Of a stretch of 64,000 bases of DNA, positions 40,899-64,000 are shown in pieces. Below the pieces are notes generated by a model that ran no database searches, was not told the DNA's origin, and worked only from the letters and a program-made list of their open reading frames with translations. Every line of letters starts with the position of its first letter. Position 1 is the stretch's first letter. Position numbers and translations under genes: made by a program. The DNA is from Phycisphaerae bacterium (GTDB lineage Bacteria > Planctomycetota > Phycisphaerae > Sedimentisphaerales > Anaerobacaceae): contig JAAYBV010000074.1 of assembly GCA_012744475.1 (NCBI GenBank), forward strand, positions 1 through 64,000, read 5' to 3'.

Positions 40899-41708
40899 TT
40901 AGCCCAGCAGCGTCAGGGCCATCTGCGGAATCGAGTTGGCCTGCGCCAGCATCGCGGTACCGGCCTGCGAGAGCACCTGGTTCCGCGTCAGAGTCGCCAT
41001 TTCCGTGGCCACGTCCACGTCCGAGATACGCGATTCGGCGGCCGAGAGGTTCTCCGCCTGAATGTTGAGCACCTCGCCGGTGGACTCCAGACGATTGATC
41101 ATGTAGCCGAACTTGGCTCGCGCGGTGTCCTTCACGTTGATCGCGCTGTCGAGCGTCGTCAGAGCGGCGCGAGCGCTTTCGGCCTGCGAGATCGAGAGGC
41201 CCGCGATGCCCAGGCCGGAGGCATCCATCTTGCTGCCCGCGATGTCGATCTTGTCCGTCTCACCACCGAAGTGCACCGAAACCGTGGCCGAGTTGTTGAG
41301 CATCTTGATGCCGTTGAAGTCGGTCGAGGTCGCAATGCGCGTGATCTCGCTGGCCATCTCGCTGAACTCGTTGTCCATGATGACCCGCTGAGCCGACGAG
41401 TACGAGCCCGTGGCGGCCTGCTCGGCGAGCTGTTGCATACGCACCATCAGGTCGTCGATGGTCTGTAGGGCACCTTCCATGGTTTGCAGCAGGCTCACGC
41501 CGTCCTGGGCGTTTCGCGAACCCTGCTGCAGCACCGCGATATCGGCACGCATCAACTCGCGGACGGCCATACCGGCGGCGTCATCGCTGGCACTGTTGAT
41601 GCGAAGACCGGACGACAGCCTCTCGACCGACGAGGCCAAGGCGTCGTAACTCTGCCCCAGGTAGCGGGCAGCGTTCGCGGCCATGAGATTGTTCTTGATT
41701 GCTAGCAT
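40899..41708 (-). CDS. fliC: Flagellin
   Basis: 269 residues from ATG 41708 (AAGGAG, spacing 8). Terminal D0/D1 regions are typical: NLMAANAARYLGQSYDALAS, VERLSSGLRINSASDDAAGM at the N-terminus and LSAAESRISDVDVATEMATL, LTRNQVLSQAGTAMLAQANS at the C-terminus. The variable centre is very short (about residues 140-180), with no D2/D3 domain, so the filament should be thin-surfaced. A sigma28-type promoter and a palindrome precede it. Other flagellins may exist elsewhere. Confidence 0.95.
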   Translation of the reverse strand: MLAIKNNLMAANAARYLGQSYDALASSVERLSSGLRINSASDDAAGMAVRELMRADIAVLQQGSRNAQDGVSLLQTMEGALQTIDDLMVRMQQLAEQAATGSYSSAQRVIMDNEFSEMASEITRIATSTDFNGIKMLNNSATVSVHFGGETDKIDIAGSKMDASGLGIAGLSISQAESARAALTTLDSAINVKDTARAKFGYMINRLESTGEVLNIQAENLSAAESRISDVDVATEMATLTRNQVLSQAGTAMLAQANSIPQMALTLLG

Positions 41709-57415: not shown

Positions 57416-58498
57416 ATGGCCGACAAACCTGCTGCCGAAAGGACAGAGCAACCGACCCCGCGAAAGCTGGGGAAGGCCCGCGAAAAAGGGCAGGTCCCGC
57501 AGAGCCAGGACCTCGGCTCGGCCGTTACGCTTCTGGTGTTGTTTCTGAGTGTCGCGCTGCTGGGGCCCGGCCTGTTGGGCTGGGCCAAAGGTCAGGTCGA
57601 AGCGAGCGTGTCCGGGCAGATCGGCCCCATGGCCGACGCCGACACGTTTGCGGCGTACCTGAACGCCAATATCGTGGACGCGGTTGTCGTCATGCTGCCC
57701 ATCCTGGCCGCCATCAGTGTGGCCGGAATCGCCGCGAGCATCGCCATCGGGGGCGTGACGTTCAGTGCCGAGGCCGTGGGATTCAAGTGGGATGCCATCA
57801 ATCCCGTCTCCGTCATCCAGAGACTCGGCAACGTGCGATCGCTGGTCCGCCTGATCAGCTCGATCGCCAAGCTGCTCATCGTCGGTCTGATCGTCTGGCT
57901 CTACCTGCGGGACAAGCTGGAGACCATGGCCGCCCTCCGTTGGGCCTGGTCTTCGCAGTTGATCGGCGCCATCGCGTCGATGACCTTCGGCCTCGGGATC
58001 CGGGTGGGCATCGCCATCATCATCCTCGGGCTGGCCGACGCCCTCTATCAGAAGTGGCAGTACATTCAAGAGCTGAAGATGACCCGGCAGGAGGTCAAAC
58101 AGGAGCGCAAAGACAGCGAAGGCTCGCCGGAAATCAAGGGCCGAATCCGCCGCATTCAGATTCAGATGTCGATGAAACGCCTGATTCGCGAGGTGCCCAA
58201 AGCCAGCGTCATCCTGGTGAACCCGACGCACGTGGCGGTCGCGCTGCGGTATGAAGCCAAGACCATGGATGCGCCCGTCCTGCTGGCCAAGGGCGCCGAC
58301 CACGTGGCGCAGAAGATCATCGCCATCGGGCGATCGTACGGGATTCCAATCGTCCGACGGCCGGAAGTCGCCCGCGCCATCTACGCCTCCGTCCAGCCGG
58401 GACAGCGCATACCGGAATCGCTCTACATGGCGGTGGCGGAAGTTCTGGCGATGATCTACCGCCTGCGGCAAAGCCGCAAGGCGAAGGCCCGAAGGTAG
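57416..58498 (+). CDS. flhB: Flagellar export switch protein FlhB
   Basis: 360 residues. AERTEQPTPRKLGKAREKGQ at the N-terminus, four membrane helices to about residue 210, then a cytoplasmic domain with the autocleavage site VILVNPTHVAVALRYE (NPTH, cut between Asn and Pro). LAKGADHVAQKIIAIGRSYG follows. It interacts with FliK to change export specificity. Last gene of the plus-strand operon. Confidence 0.95.
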   Translation: MADKPAAERTEQPTPRKLGKAREKGQVPQSQDLGSAVTLLVLFLSVALLGPGLLGWAKGQVEASVSGQIGPMADADTFAAYLNANIVDAVVVMLPILAAISVAGIAASIAIGGVTFSAEAVGFKWDAINPVSVIQRLGNVRSLVRLISSIAKLLIVGLIVWLYLRDKLETMAALRWAWSSQLIGAIASMTFGLGIRVGIAIIILGLADALYQKWQYIQELKMTRQEVKQERKDSEGSPEIKGRIRRIQIQMSMKRLIREVPKASVILVNPTHVAVALRYEAKTMDAPVLLAKGADHVAQKIIAIGRSYGIPIVRRPEVARAIYASVQPGQRIPESLYMAVAEVLAMIYRLRQSRKAKARR

Positions 58499-58540: not shown

Positions 58541-60568
58541 CTACTCATAGGACAGCAATCCCGACATCTGGCTTTGCAGCAGTGTCAGAGTCCTCTCGAG
58601 CCGTGCATACTTCGCAACCAGACGCGCCTCCACGCGCGACAGGCGGTCTTCCTCTGTCGCGATGCGGTCCTCCAGGTTCTCAATCTGCGACTCCACCGAC
58701 TCCTGGTCCAGTGTGAGCCATCCGTTCGTGGGCTTCAGGAATCCTTCGAGCACCTCCTTCATCGCCCCGGTGAATCCCTGCTTGACGCGGACCGTGGCGT
58801 TGAAGGTGCCGTCCTGGCTGAGATCGACGCTGAGCGTCAGGCCATTCTCCGCGTACAGCGGCGCCCCATTGTCATCAAACGTTCGGTCTCCGGTGACAAT
58901 GTTGCCGGCGAATATCGCATCGCGATAGGCGGATTCACCTTCCGGCTTGATCTTGGCGCTGGTGATGGCTCCTCCGGAAACCGTCACCTGCACGCTATAT
59001 GTCCCGCCTCTGGTATTCCTGCTCGAAGCGCTGTAGAACTGAACCACGTTGCTGTCGGAGCTGCCCGTCTTGTCGGCCCCGATCAGAGAAAGCACACCCA
59101 TGTAGTCCTTCGCGATCGCTTCGTCGAATGCAGTCGAATCCAGCGAGAGCAGACCGTCGCGGTCGAGTTCGAGACCGATTTGTCCCGGCATGAGGAAGCT
59201 GTCGACGTCCATAACGAAGCCGCTGGTTCGCTGAACCAGGGACGTCCGCAGATTGTTGGCAATGCTCGTGACGGTCGAGTCGCTCATCAGGAGGCCCGCG
59301 ATCCCCTGTGTGCTGTCGTATCCGGTGTTTGCCGTGATGAACGCCACCACGTCATTGTAGGCGTCCACCCACGACTGGAGCTTGTCCTTGACCGATTCGG
59401 TGTCGCGGGTCAGGCTCACTTGCACGGTCCCGGCGTCGTGCAGATGCAGCGTCACGCCGGAAATGGCGTCGTCAACCGTGTTCGAACTGCGACTGATCCA
59501 TTCATCGGCGCCCGGCGGAAAGCCATCCACCTTGATCTGAGAATCCTGGGCGGATTGCGTCTCGACGAAATCCGACCCGGCAAAGCCCGCCAGACTGGCC
59601 GTCACACTGCCCCCCTGCGTGGACTGGCTGATCGCCGGCAGGTCCAGCGTAGTGGACCCCGATCCGGGATTGTACGCCAAGCCGAGCGTCATCAGACTGA
59701 CGCCGCTGGTTTGGCTGGTCAACCGGATCTGACCGTTGACCAGCGTCGCCTTGGCCGTGCCTGAGAAGGCGTCATTGATCTCCCCGAGGAGATGATCCAG
59801 GGTCGTGTTCTCGTTGACGTTCAGCGTGTGGTTGACCACCGTGCCGTCGTGCATCGTGCCCGAGATGGTGATGGACTCGTCGCCCGTCAGCACGCCGCTG
59901 AATTGATCGAGCTTCTGGATCTTGTCGGTCACAGCGGCATTTTCCGTGCCCACGGTGAGGGAGGAGGTCGCCTGCCACACCTCCGTGTTGCTGGTGTTGA
60001 TCCTGATCTCGTAGTCCGAGCCGGCGTCGTTGCCGTTCAGTACGAGATGATACGCGTCATTATAGGACAGCAAATTCGCGGTCACGCCCGGGTTACTCGC
60101 GTCGTTGTTGATCAGCCCCACGAGCTCCTCCAGCGTCGTGTCCTCTGTGGTGGTGATGACCATCTCTTCGTTGTTGTACGAGAAGATGAACGTGCCGGCC
60201 CCAACGAGGCTTTCAGCATATTCCAGGCCGCTGGTGTGCACCCAGCGTTCCGCATTCGCCAGCCGGTTCACGACGACGGAATGGCTGCCCTCATAGGCCG
60301 TGTTGGACGATTCGGCCGAAAGGATATCCTCATCGCTGGTCTTGGTTCCGAAGGAACGGAGTTTCTTGGCGTCGGAAAGACCTTCGGCCGCCTCTTGCAG
60401 GGCCTCCAACTTCGTTTCCAGCGTGTTCAAGGCCTCCCGGCGATCGTCCCAAGTCTCTTTTCGTTCGACGTACTTGTCGCGCCGTTGCCCTTCAATCGCG
60501 ACCAATTGCTTGACCAGTGTCTCGGTGTCAATGCCCGTTGACAGGCCGGAAAGCCGCAATTCGCCCAT
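58541..60568 (-). CDS. fliD: Flagellar filament cap protein FliD (HAP2)
   Basis: 675 residues, ATG 60568. N-terminal domain: LSGLSTGIDTETLVKQLVAI, QRRDKYVERKETWDDRREAL, LNTLETKLEALQEAAEGLSD. Central surface domains are Thr/Ser-rich (about residues 90-480). C-terminal coiled-coil: LEDRIATEEDRLSRVEARLV, ARLERTLTLLQSQMSGLLSY. Longer than the usual 450-500 residues. Caps the filament and folds flagellin onto it. Confidence 0.93.
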   Translation of the reverse strand: MGELRLSGLSTGIDTETLVKQLVAIEGQRRDKYVERKETWDDRREALNTLETKLEALQEAAEGLSDAKKLRSFGTKTSDEDILSAESSNTAYEGSHSVVVNRLANAERWVHTSGLEYAESLVGAGTFIFSYNNEEMVITTTEDTTLEELVGLINNDASNPGVTANLLSYNDAYHLVLNGNDAGSDYEIRINTSNTEVWQATSSLTVGTENAAVTDKIQKLDQFSGVLTGDESITISGTMHDGTVVNHTLNVNENTTLDHLLGEINDAFSGTAKATLVNGQIRLTSQTSGVSLMTLGLAYNPGSGSTTLDLPAISQSTQGGSVTASLAGFAGSDFVETQSAQDSQIKVDGFPPGADEWISRSSNTVDDAISGVTLHLHDAGTVQVSLTRDTESVKDKLQSWVDAYNDVVAFITANTGYDSTQGIAGLLMSDSTVTSIANNLRTSLVQRTSGFVMDVDSFLMPGQIGLELDRDGLLSLDSTAFDEAIAKDYMGVLSLIGADKTGSSDSNVVQFYSASSRNTRGGTYSVQVTVSGGAITSAKIKPEGESAYRDAIFAGNIVTGDRTFDDNGAPLYAENGLTLSVDLSQDGTFNATVRVKQGFTGAMKEVLEGFLKPTNGWLTLDQESVESQIENLEDRIATEEDRLSRVEARLVAKYARLERTLTLLQSQMSGLLSYE

Positions 60569-60696: not shown

Positions 60697-63600
60697 TCAG
60701 GTCCCAACAGGCGAGAGAGTCGTCCGTTGCGGCGCCTTCGCTCCAGGCTTCGTCGCGCCCAGGTTGAGTCGCTCGGCGTGCTCCTGACACCAGGAGGCCA
60801 GGTCAACCGGCTTGGTGGACTCGAAGGCATCTTTCACGAACCGACGGGCGGCGGCCGTGCCATGACGACGAATCTCACGATCCAGATGCAGGCGAGCCTG
60901 CCCATTCATCCGCAGGGCGAAAAAGGCCAAGCCGCGCAAAAGGTCATAGCCGACTACGCGATCGGCCACGGTCGCATCGAGAACCTCCACATTGTTGAGG
61001 ATATTGACGCAACTGACGAAGAAACCCCGGTTGAACAGCGAGACCGCGATGTCCAGATACTCAGGGACAACCCGGTCATCCAGAGGCTGACTCTCCCAGG
61101 CGAGGATCTGGGCCCTGAAACGCGTCAGGAAATCGCCGCAGGTGCATTGACGCAATGCACGTCCGATATCCATGCCGGGTTCCGACTTCAGGCGCTCCCG
61201 GATGCGCGACAGCCGGCCGTCACAGTATTGCCGGTACCGCGTTCGTCGATTGCGCGGATCGAGTGTCGACACTACCCGCGTGTAGTTCATCGCGTGCAGA
61301 CGGATCAGGGTCAGGCTCTCGGGCACGTTCTTCACAAAGACGGGCTGACCGGCCTGGGCATACAGAGCCAGTTTCGCCGACCAGAACGAATCGGCGGCAA
61401 AGGGGTTCTCGTCGTAGAGACCGATCTGGGCGAAAAGGGCCTTGCGGATGATCGCGGTCCCGTGGCTCAGGCTGTGACGCCAGGTCCGGAATCGGGCCAT
61501 GATTTCATCGTCCGTCAACGGCAGTTGACTGCATTCGCTGTGTTCCGGACCGCGGTACGCTTCGAGAAACGTGCGGTAGTTCGAGCCCACCATAGCCAGC
61601 CGGTCGTCCCGGCTGATCTCGTCGTACAGAGTCTCCAGCTTGGTGGAGCACATCAGGTCATCGGCGTCGTGAATCACGATGAAATCTGCGCGGGCGCGTT
61701 CGATGGCGTAATTGCGCCGGACGTACGGTCCTGCCTGGTCGTGGAAGAAATGGACATGGATGCGTGCGTCGCGCCGGGCATATTCCTCGATGATCCGGCG
61801 GGTGTTGTCCGTGCTGGCGTCGTCGAGCAGGAACAGCTCCCACTGGCTCAGCGTTTGGGACAGAATGCTGTCCAGGCACTCGGGGAGAAAGTCAGCGGCA
61901 TTCCGGCACGCCGTGATCACCGTAACTTTGGGCGACTCGCCCGCCACGACGGCGGTTCGGGTCTGCTCCAACGACAACGTCGTGCACGCTGTGCCCCCGA
62001 CTTGCAGCGTGACGGCGTCCGCATGCTCGGCGCCCCACTGCTGCACGTCGATCTGCACGCCTGGCGTGAAGGCCTCCTCGCGAAACTGCCTGGCGGCCGG
62101 GGTGTCGTGATGGGCCATCTCCCTGCGCAGGTAGATCTGACACCGCTCTTTGTGCCCCAGCCCATAGAGCGCTAGCGCGCGGACCAGATCGACATTGGCG
62201 AGGCGATGCGGCAGTTCCAGGTCCATGCCCTCCAACGCGGACAGGGCCTGCACGCAACTGACGTACTGCTGCATTCGGAAACACTCTGTGGCACGCTGAA
62301 GGAAGCGAACCACGATCCCTTCGTCCACCGGCTCGCGTTCCCATTCGGCGATCTGCGCGCCGAAGCGTGGGAGGAAGTCGGCGCAGGTGCATTCGCGCAG
62401 CGCCCGGGCGACATCCATCGAGGGGTCGCGCGCCACCGCGTTGACCACCTCCTGGAGCCGGCTGAGGCAGTACTGTGAATACCGCGTTCGTCGGCTGCGC
62501 GGGTCCATCGCCGGCAGTTGCCCCACCTGCGATTCGCTGTGCACCCGCCGCAGAGTAAGAGACTCCGGAATATTGCACAACCGGATACGCTCCGTGCGGC
62601 GGGCGTATTCGGCCACCTTGGCCAGCCAGAACGAGTCGGCGCCGAAGGGATTTTCGTCATACAGCCCGATCTCCTCGAACAGCGTTCGCCGGACGATCGC
62701 CGAGCCATGCCACACGAAATCCCACATGGACCGGGCGTCATACGCCTCCAGAATCTCCTCGTGAGTCTCCGGCAGCGTCATGGCTTCAGTGGATTCGAGG
62801 CCGGTGAAATCATCCAGGAACTTCCGATAGAACGAACCGACGACCGCCAGACGCTCGTCGCCGCCGATTGCATCGCAAAGACGCCGAAGCTTGTCGGGAC
62901 ACATGATGTCGTCGGCATCCTGAATCGAGACAAACGGCGCACGGGCCTGTCGGATGGCGAAGTTGCGACGGATGTACGGCCCGCTGCTTTCGTCGAAGTA
63001 GAAGGGCCGGATCCGCGCATCGCGGGCGGCATACGCCTCCATGATCCCGCGCGTACCGTCGGTGCTACCATCGTCAAGAATCAGCAATTCCCATTCCGAC
63101 AGGGTCTGCTGCAGGATGCTGTCCAGACATTCCGGCAGGTGCTTTTCCCCATTGCGGCACGCCAACACCACGCTGACCGCCGGCACGGATGCACGCGGCG
63201 CGGGCGCAGTGGATTCAGCCACCGCCGGCGTACTGGCCCGCGCCTCGAGGCGCTGCTTCAGTTCGGGCACAAGAGCCGGACCGACATGTAACATCACATC
63301 GTTGGAATCCGTCCCGCCCGTGAGGATCTGGCAGTGCTTGCACCGATGGGGCATATCGTCCCGGCCGTCTTTGATGGCCTGCCGCAAATCCCGGAGTCTT
63401 CTGCCATTCCACACACCTTCGAGGGGCTCCGTCAGCGCATTGCCCATCGGAAGGTCCAGAAGATGGCAGCAGGAGACGACGTCGCCGTTGAGGAGTATGC
63501 GAACCCGCTGCCAGGGTCGAACACACCGTCTGTGGCCTTCCGTCAGTTGCTGCGAGGCCACATAGGGTGGGCGGCTCAGATCGAAGTTGTTGGGGATGTC

Positions 63601-64000
63601 CAGAACCAGTCCGAGTTGATCGGCCTTGGCCCTGGCCAAATCGAAGTTCGCATTCGCCCGCTCCCGGTGGAGGAGCAACGAGTCGTCCAGCGCCGAGGGG
63701 CTGTATATGTGGACGAAGTTCACCGCCACACTGTCGAAGGCATATCGGCCGGCCATCTCGATCACGTCGGGCAGTTCGGCGATGTTCTGGTGCATCGCAA
63801 CGAAGGTCAGTTCGCAACGGAGGTCGGGCTTGTCCCGCCGGATGTCGGCCAGAATCTCCAGGTTACGGCAGAGGCGGTCGAAACTCAGACGCGTACGGAT
63901 GGATTCGTAGGTCTGCCGGGTGGATCCGTCTACGGAAACACGAACCGTGTTGAAGAACTTCCGAATCGTCTCCGCCCGTCGCCCGGCCAGCGTGGACAGA
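60697..64000 (-). CDS. Radical SAM/SPASM protein fused to two glycosyltransferase family 2 units (5' end outside window)
   Basis: About 1100 residues are visible; the frame is open to the right edge, so the start and the CxxxCxxC cluster motif lie outside. The edge reads VRVSVDGSTRQTYESIRTRL, the later part of a radical SAM barrel. A SPASM-type region with Cys follows (RRCVRPWQRVRILLNGDVVS, CCHLLDLPMGN, RCKHCQILTG), likely binding an extra iron-sulfur cluster. Then come two copies of a GT2 unit: VSVVLACRNGEKHLPECLDS with ILDDGSTDGTRGI and IQDADD, and VTVITACRNAADFLPECLDS with LLDDASTDNTRRI and IHDADD. Each is followed by the same helical module (DPRSRRTRYSQYC / DPRNRRTRYRQYC, ECTCADFLPRF / QCTCGDFLTRF). 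The 128-base gap to fliD holds a possible fliD promoter. Substrate unknown; filament modification is inferred from position. Confidence 0.85.
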   Translation of the reverse strand, partial: LSTLAGRRAETIRKFFNTVRVSVDGSTRQTYESIRTRLSFDRLCRNLEILADIRRDKPDLRCELTFVAMHQNIAELPDVIEMAGRYAFDSVAVNFVHIYSPSALDDSLLLHRERANANFDLARAKADQLGLVLDIPNNFDLSRPPYVASQQLTEGHRRCVRPWQRVRILLNGDVVSCCHLLDLPMGNALTEPLEGVWNGRRLRDLRQAIKDGRDDMPHRCKHCQILTGGTDSNDVMLHVGPALVPELKQRLEARASTPAVAESTAPAPRASVPAVSVVLACRNGEKHLPECLDSILQQTLSEWELLILDDGSTDGTRGIMEAYAARDARIRPFYFDESSGPYIRRNFAIRQARAPFVSIQDADDIMCPDKLRRLCDAIGGDERLAVVGSFYRKFLDDFTGLESTEAMTLPETHEEILEAYDARSMWDFVWHGSAIVRRTLFEEIGLYDENPFGADSFWLAKVAEYARRTERIRLCNIPESLTLRRVHSESQVGQLPAMDPRSRRTRYSQYCLSRLQEVVNAVARDPSMDVARALRECTCADFLPRFGAQIAEWEREPVDEGIVVRFLQRATECFRMQQYVSCVQALSALEGMDLELPHRLANVDLVRALALYGLGHKERCQIYLRREMAHHDTPAARQFREEAFTPGVQIDVQQWGAEHADAVTLQVGGTACTTLSLEQTRTAVVAGESPKVTVITACRNAADFLPECLDSILSQTLSQWELFLLDDASTDNTRRIIEEYARRDARIHVHFFHDQAGPYVRRNYAIERARADFIVIHDADDLMCSTKLETLYDEISRDDRLAMVGSNYRTFLEAYRGPEHSECSQLPLTDDEIMARFRTWRHSLSHGTAIIRKALFAQIGLYDENPFAADSFWSAKLALYAQAGQPVFVKNVPESLTLIRLHAMNYTRVVSTLDPRNRRTRYRQYCDGRLSRIRERLKSEPGMDIGRALRQCTCGDFLTRFRAQILAWESQPLDDRVVPEYLDIAVSLFNRGFFVSCVNILNNVEVLDATVADRVVGYDLLRGLAFFALRMNGQARLHLDREIRRHGTAAARRFVKDAFESTKPVDLASWCQEHAERLNLGATKPGAKAPQRTTLSPVGT
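60766..63180 (-). repeat. Internal duplication of a GT2 plus helical module (two units of about 1.17 kb)
   Basis: Unit 1 spans 61996-63180 and unit 2 spans 60766-61932 in the same gene. The two align over the whole GT2 domain and the following cysteine-containing helical region; shared words include GLYDENPF, ADSFW, PESLTL and a CTC-x-DFL-x-RF motif. Confidence 0.8.

Follow-up and report, generated by a model that had tools for sequence, protein, structure and literature searches.

A 4,014-residue radical SAM-glycosyltransferase fusion beside fliD in a planctomycete, a member of a family of giant proteins with exchangeable modules and a putative role in flagellar glycosylation

In a Phycisphaerae-type planctomycete, a single gene beside fliD, which encodes the flagellar cap, specifies one genuine fusion protein of 4,014 amino acids, combining several glycosyltransferase (GT) domains with a radical SAM-Twitch module. 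Comparison with related genomes indicates that the radical SAM module is an optional, exchangeable part of fliD-linked giant glycosyltransferases, which form a broader family. We think it fairly likely that the giant is a cytoplasmic, modular assembly-line megaenzyme for the glycosylation of flagellin or FliD.

The window, i.e., the whole 64,000-nucleotide stretch analyzed, comprises positions 1-64000 of a 124-kb contig, and the giant open reading frame runs past its edge, such that the part inside (60697..64000, reverse strand) is the C-terminal 27% of the gene. From the window, the first-pass annotation had described an open frame at 60697-63999 on the reverse strand with the tail of a radical SAM barrel, a SPASM-type region and two GT2 domains, all of which were recovered by ORF and Pfam analysis (two Glycos_transf_2 domains, 3.4e-61). 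Extended contig sequence contains no stop from the window edge to 72741; the fusion therefore stands, but the protein is nearly fourfold the size of that layout, with additional GTs, TPRs and a methyltransferase-like domain. The pattern of GC content by codon position is uniform along the entire 4,014-aa frame, and no other GT2-bearing frame longer than 606 aa was found in this genome (G000). A radical SAM domain encoded by a separate gene, which the first-pass annotation had named as an outcome that would overturn its reading, is ruled out, the domain lying inside one uninterrupted frame with the GT2 domains. The same fusion occurs in a single frame in G004 (LVBB01000041, Phycisphaerales bacterium Planc_01) and G029 (JAFGLV010000031, Sedimentisphaerales), and in G001 (JAAYBA010000037) it spans two contigs that overlap exactly over 127 bp. 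Given this recurrence, an assembly or frameshift artefact is ruled out. The features are as follows, in contig positions or, for domains of the giant, in residues (aa):

40899..41708, reverse: flagellin gene, 269 aa (PF00669, 1.2e-34)
57416..58498, forward: flhB (flagellar export), convergent neighbor conserved with the giant gene and fliD
58541..60568, reverse: fliD (flagellar cap), FliD_N match; homologs in relatives adjoin the giant
60697-72741, reverse: giant multi-GT/radical SAM gene, 4,014 aa, ATG at 72741
aa 11-163: N-terminal GT2
aa 300-590 (70957-71844, reverse): stretch without a Pfam family
aa ~590-830: O-methyltransferase-like domain, weak Methyltransf_24 by sequence plus structural match
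between the O-methyltransferase-like and GT-A-like domains: TPR
aa ~955-1245: GT-A-like domain, no Pfam family, structural match
C-terminal to the GT-A-like domain: TPR
aa 1380-1860: one or two weak GT-like domains
aa ~1896-2281: GT2-helical copy 1
between GT2-helical copy 1 and the radical SAM domain: degenerate GT2-like stretch, then TPR-like repeats
aa 2842-2996 (Pfam match 63754-64218, reverse; later half, 63754..64000, in the window): radical SAM barrel, Radical_SAM 1.2e-13
aa 3073-3138 (63328..63525, reverse): Twitch (truncated SPASM), four invariant Cys at aa 3073, 3091, 3134 and 3137
from aa 3190: GT2-helical copy 2
62668..63174, reverse: GT2 of copy 2, DxD = IQDADD
62011..62493, reverse: helical module of copy 2, CTCADFL at 62371-62391
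from aa 3607: GT2-helical copy 3
61423..61923, reverse: GT2 of copy 3, DxD = IHDADD
60772..61263 (limits approximate), reverse: helical module of copy 3, CTCGDFL at 61126-61146

Across the whole giant, Pfam recognized GT2, radical SAM, SPASM and TPR families, and two structure models (pLDDT 84 and 82) matched GT-A polymerases, radical SAM enzymes and O-methyltransferases. Assignment to GT2, with its GT-A fold and DxD motif, is supported by PF00535 matches, DADD motifs and structural Z-scores up to 27. The GT2-helical module, with its CTC-x-DFL and intact DxD motifs, had been thought duplicated; the motifs hold, but the module is triplicated, the additional copy at aa 1896-2281 sharing 74% DNA identity over 693 bp with another copy. 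Mutual DNA identity among the three copies is 64-74% over 650-830 bp. Modeled structures align the O-methyltransferase-like domain with an O-methyltransferase (Z 15.7, 3.2 Å over 198) and the GT-A-like domain with chondroitin polymerase (Z 17.7) and GalNAc-T2 (Z 15.3). Neither aa 1380-1860, where a weak GT2 signal is present, nor aa 300-590 matched a Pfam family above cut-off. Judged by eye, aa 300-590 has a transglutaminase-like appearance; this stretch is also present in G004 and missing in G029.

The CxxxCxxC motif that the first-pass annotation expected to the right of the window is present as CNGGCVMC (aa 2847, nt 64180-64203), 180 bases beyond the edge. Along with the PF04055 match and fold Z-scores of 20-24 in a region modeled at high confidence (pLDDT 84), it identifies a radical SAM superfamily domain, i.e., CxxxCxxC in a partial TIM barrel. 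The Cys-rich region, originally called SPASM-like, does score above the Pfam SPASM cut-off (E 5.6e-12 to 5.9e-12), yet it has the four cysteines of a Twitch domain, which corresponds to one auxiliary cluster. SPASM domains are defined by seven cysteines, CX9-15GX4C-gap-CX2CX5CX3C-gap-C, and BtrN and SkfB exemplify the Twitch pattern, CX9-15GX4C-gap-CX2C (PMC6231123). Only the first four cysteines of the seven-Cys motif, which denotes two auxiliary clusters, occur in the giant, in the arrangement C-x12-G-x4-C ... C-x2-C that is invariant in an alignment of four genomes. The other three sequences share 93, 91 and 60% identity with the query, and all CxxxCxxC cysteines and GGE are kept in 4/4 sequences. 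Fold comparison, made on larger model pieces, returned SkfB (Z 24.4, 3.4 Å over 283), BlsE (Z 23.8, 3.1 Å over 284), SuiB (Z 22.9) and DesII (Z 21.6); sequence identities to SkfB, BlsE and DesII in the structural alignments lie below 20%, and the best PDB-sequence match was BlsE, a cytosylglucuronate decarboxylase (E 7e-5). As these neighbors are peptide and sugar enzymes alike, the fold leaves the radical SAM substrate undecided. Assignment to one known radical SAM family was rejected, as no curated cut-off of the NCBIfam equivalogs was passed (best NF033640, 96.1 bits vs. a cut-off of 170).

A 128-bp gap separates the giant gene from fliD downstream, both being read in the same direction; flhB and fliR come next and are convergent to both. 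The giant gene shares its segment, flgK-flgL ... fliD, with nucleotide-sugar genes, and this segment by location is a flagellar glycosylation island, i.e., nucleotide-sugar genes linked to flagellin, the cap or the hook-filament junction. Between the giant and flgL/flgK are genes encoding an HddA-like kinase, an RmlC-like epimerase, two Fcl-like SDRs, an HddC/ManC-like nucleotidyltransferase, a GMD-like dehydratase, a nucleotide-sugar dehydrogenase, a transketolase-like pair, a PDH-E1-like pair, methyltransferases and further TPR/GT proteins, the names transketolase N part, E1 beta, TPR/GT and methyltransferase coming from our own reading of the sequences. The GDP-6-deoxy-heptose route of Campylobacter comprises a kinase, guanylyltransferase, 4,6-dehydratase, epimerase and 4-reductase (PMC10680097), and the island may make a sugar of this type, its genes scoring below curated cut-offs. 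The transketolase-like and pyruvate dehydrogenase-E1-like pairs (contig 77232-81215, outside the window) perhaps point to a branched or extended sugar. Adjoining flgL are two more GT proteins with TPR-like parts (contig 86206-89447, also outside the window), whose presence varies among relatives. The flagellin is a short form with no variable middle domain and contains neither Cys nor Trp; FliD composition likewise includes no Cys. Both are candidate substrates of the giant.

A co-directional multi-GT protein of 935-4,014 aa is encoded 5' of fliD at 24 of the 26 readable fliD loci of the order, mostly 79-244 bp away (~0.7 kb in G036), with one 325-aa gene in between in G025 and G028. Homologs thus sit beside fliD and not away from flagellar loci, the latter being an outcome the first-pass annotation had considered damaging. 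The two exceptions, G034 and G006, are flagellated and have no giant beside fliD. Modules are shuffled among the giants, which contain one to six GT2 domains, GT1/GT4, GT9, Capsule_synth, FkbM or other methyltransferases and TPRs. Related giants beside fliD in G003, G005 and G036 have no radical SAM module; others carry FkbM, MT24 or MT23/11 methyltransferases or a B12-binding radical SAM. The last of these, a second and unrelated radical SAM type, occurs in the fliD-linked giants of G008 (L112:246-11363, 3,706 aa, CPFRCAFC) and G025 (L100:10742-14872, 1,377 aa, CPFKCRFC). In G018, four consecutive large genes (L064:407-15547; 935, 1454, 1539 and 1089 aa) lie upstream of fliD, with the core module in a protein of its own (1,089 aa), an arrangement that resembles a split giant.

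Beyond the order, BLAST with this protein's modules, which could miss other GT types, found no match to the GT modules at 20 fliD loci drawn from further families, orders and classes of the phylum (15 with ~14-15 kb upstream, five with 1.5-3.6 kb). In 392 genomes of the phylum, no giant radical SAM-GT fusion other than the query carried this Twitch module; its radical SAM relatives were stand-alone or otherwise fused, the longer ones (767-982 aa) having another layout by eye. A fusion widespread in the phylum was thus not seen, and a scan of genome contigs gave close matches only in G004, G001 and G029.

Silent sites were compared between G000 and G004. Identical third bases at four-fold sites numbered 375/476 for aa 1-1050, 127/261 for aa 1896-2700 upstream of the radical SAM module, 159/182 in the module itself (aa 2781-3157), and 145/280 downstream (aa 3165-4003; module vs. 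downstream, Fisher p = 3e-16), compared with 46% identity for FliD and 60% for FlhB. The steps coincide with domain boundaries and, within one gene, are hardly explicable by codon-usage constraint. We therefore read them as recent recombination, showing at the sequence level that the module moves as a cassette. The kinase/SDR/RmlC-like block accompanies the module in 4/4 genomes and is found in 3/57 genomes lacking it, counts that are few, drawn from related genomes and uncorrected for shared ancestry. Block kinase and SDR are absent genome-wide from G002, G003, G005 and G036. Strict pairing is ruled out by G012, G022 and G031, which have the sugar block and no Twitch module; in this set the module never occurs without the block, and the block can exist without the module.

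Gene order, the restriction of core giants to flagellin-bearing genomes and the nucleotide-sugar island together point to a probable role in filament or cap glycosylation, the best-supported reading, which is based on gene linkage. The first-pass annotation had offered a filament protein as a candidate target; with homologs at fliD and the sugar island, a filament or cap protein is now the target best supported. In the mechanism we favor, the TPR and helical modules would keep flagellin, or the FliD cap, in place prior to export, and several GT-A domains would add sugars one by one to Ser/Thr. Built-in O-methyltransferase-like and radical SAM-Twitch domains would modify these sugars: the radical SAM [4Fe-4S] cluster would cleave SAM and then take an H atom from the sugar, leading to dehydrogenation, deoxygenation or epimerization, with the Twitch cluster acting as electron acceptor. 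Lineages would swap modules and thereby change the filament glycan. The sequence itself shows the ORF with its domains and motif cysteines, the constant locus with its changing content and the step in synonymous identity; the enzyme activity of each domain, the order of sugars, the substrate and the radical SAM reaction are what we infer.

The radical SAM domain probably tailors sugar rather than protein: in other genomes, proteins of this kind contain methyltransferases or a second radical SAM type instead, the module goes with the sugar block, its structural neighbors include the sugar enzymes BlsE and DesII, and flagellin and FliD lack cysteine. Against this, the closest structural match, tied with BlsE, is the peptide maturase SkfB. 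Modification of a flagellar protein at backbone or side chain by the radical SAM-Twitch domain, in the manner of a RiPP maturase, with the GT2 domains then glycosylating at or near the same site, is unlikely in our estimation. It would fit SkfB and SuiB, both peptide maturases, as structural neighbors, TPR modules on the same chain that could present a protein, and the precedent of FliB, an Fe-S enzyme able to modify flagellin (PMC8598068). However, the Cys-free flagellin and FliD speak against thioether formation, the Trp-free flagellin excludes Trp crosslinks on that protein, and there is only one auxiliary cluster; the corresponding slot in relatives holds methyltransferases or B12-radical SAM domains, and the module follows the sugar block. 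Of the earlier proposal that one polypeptide prepares and glycosylates the same target, the single polypeptide thus survives and, on these same grounds, preparation of the protein has become less likely.

That the giant instead makes a lipid- or cell surface-linked polysaccharide (capsule, O-antigen or sheath-like), and lies at fliD by chance or through shared regulation, we regard as slightly less plausible again. Its GT2 domains do resemble heparosan and chondroitin polymerases, and some relatives' giants include Capsule_synth or heptosyltransferase-like domains, but the fliD location persists over several families while module content changes, giants with the conserved core occur exclusively in genomes encoding flagellin, and no export or polymerase gene was noticed on nonsystematic inspection of the island. 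The idea that only the GTs matter, with the radical SAM module as a passenger in decay, for which the module's absence from the similar giants of close relatives (G003, G005 and G036) might speak, is very improbable given cluster cysteines and GGE that are invariant down to 60% identity, an open frame and maintained codon bias.

Flagellar glycans are usually built by a handful of separate enzymes. The flagellin glycosyltransferases Fgt1/Fgt2 and the flgL-fliD glycosylation islands of Pseudomonas rely on separate, far smaller enzymes with tailoring genes that are also separate, and we know of no radical SAM domain there. What these systems share with the present locus is dedicated glycosyltransferase genes by the flagellin genes in the flgL-to-fliD segment (PMC3927599). 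FlmG of Caulobacter, whose TPR domain binds flagellin (PMC7591256), also combines TPR modules and a glycosyltransferase on one chain, but has 596 aa and one GT-B domain, unlike the giant with its GT-A domains and several tailoring modules. BtrN, SkfB, BlsE and DesII share CxxxCxxC and the one-auxiliary-cluster Twitch pattern, the last three at fold Z-scores of 21-24, yet all are stand-alone enzymes, whereas here the module is fused inside a multi-GT protein. FliB, the flagellin lysine methylase, is likewise an Fe-S enzyme dedicated to flagella but has a CX4CX3CC motif, contains no glycosyltransferase and methylates lysine. Heparosan synthase 2 and the chondroitin polymerase K4CP, which rank near the top of the structural matches to the GT2 part, carry two GT-A domains per chain but are polysaccharide polymerases with no radical SAM, TPR or flagellar link. 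In the limited library of open-access papers searched, we found no description of a flagellar system that incorporates a radical SAM domain.

One locus thus holds a modular giant whose domain set varies between close relatives, and giants in the same spot with swapped modules suggest a mix-and-match machine for decorating flagella. This makes it testable whether domain order predicts glycan structure and how radical SAM enzymes act on protein-bound sugars. More tentatively, and with some doubt, one polypeptide may build and tailor the whole flagellar glycan and evolve by exchange of domain cassettes at a fixed fliD locus. If so, cassettes including two unrelated radical SAM types would let lineages of one planctomycete order diversify their filament glycans in a manner comparable to polyketide synthases and their products.
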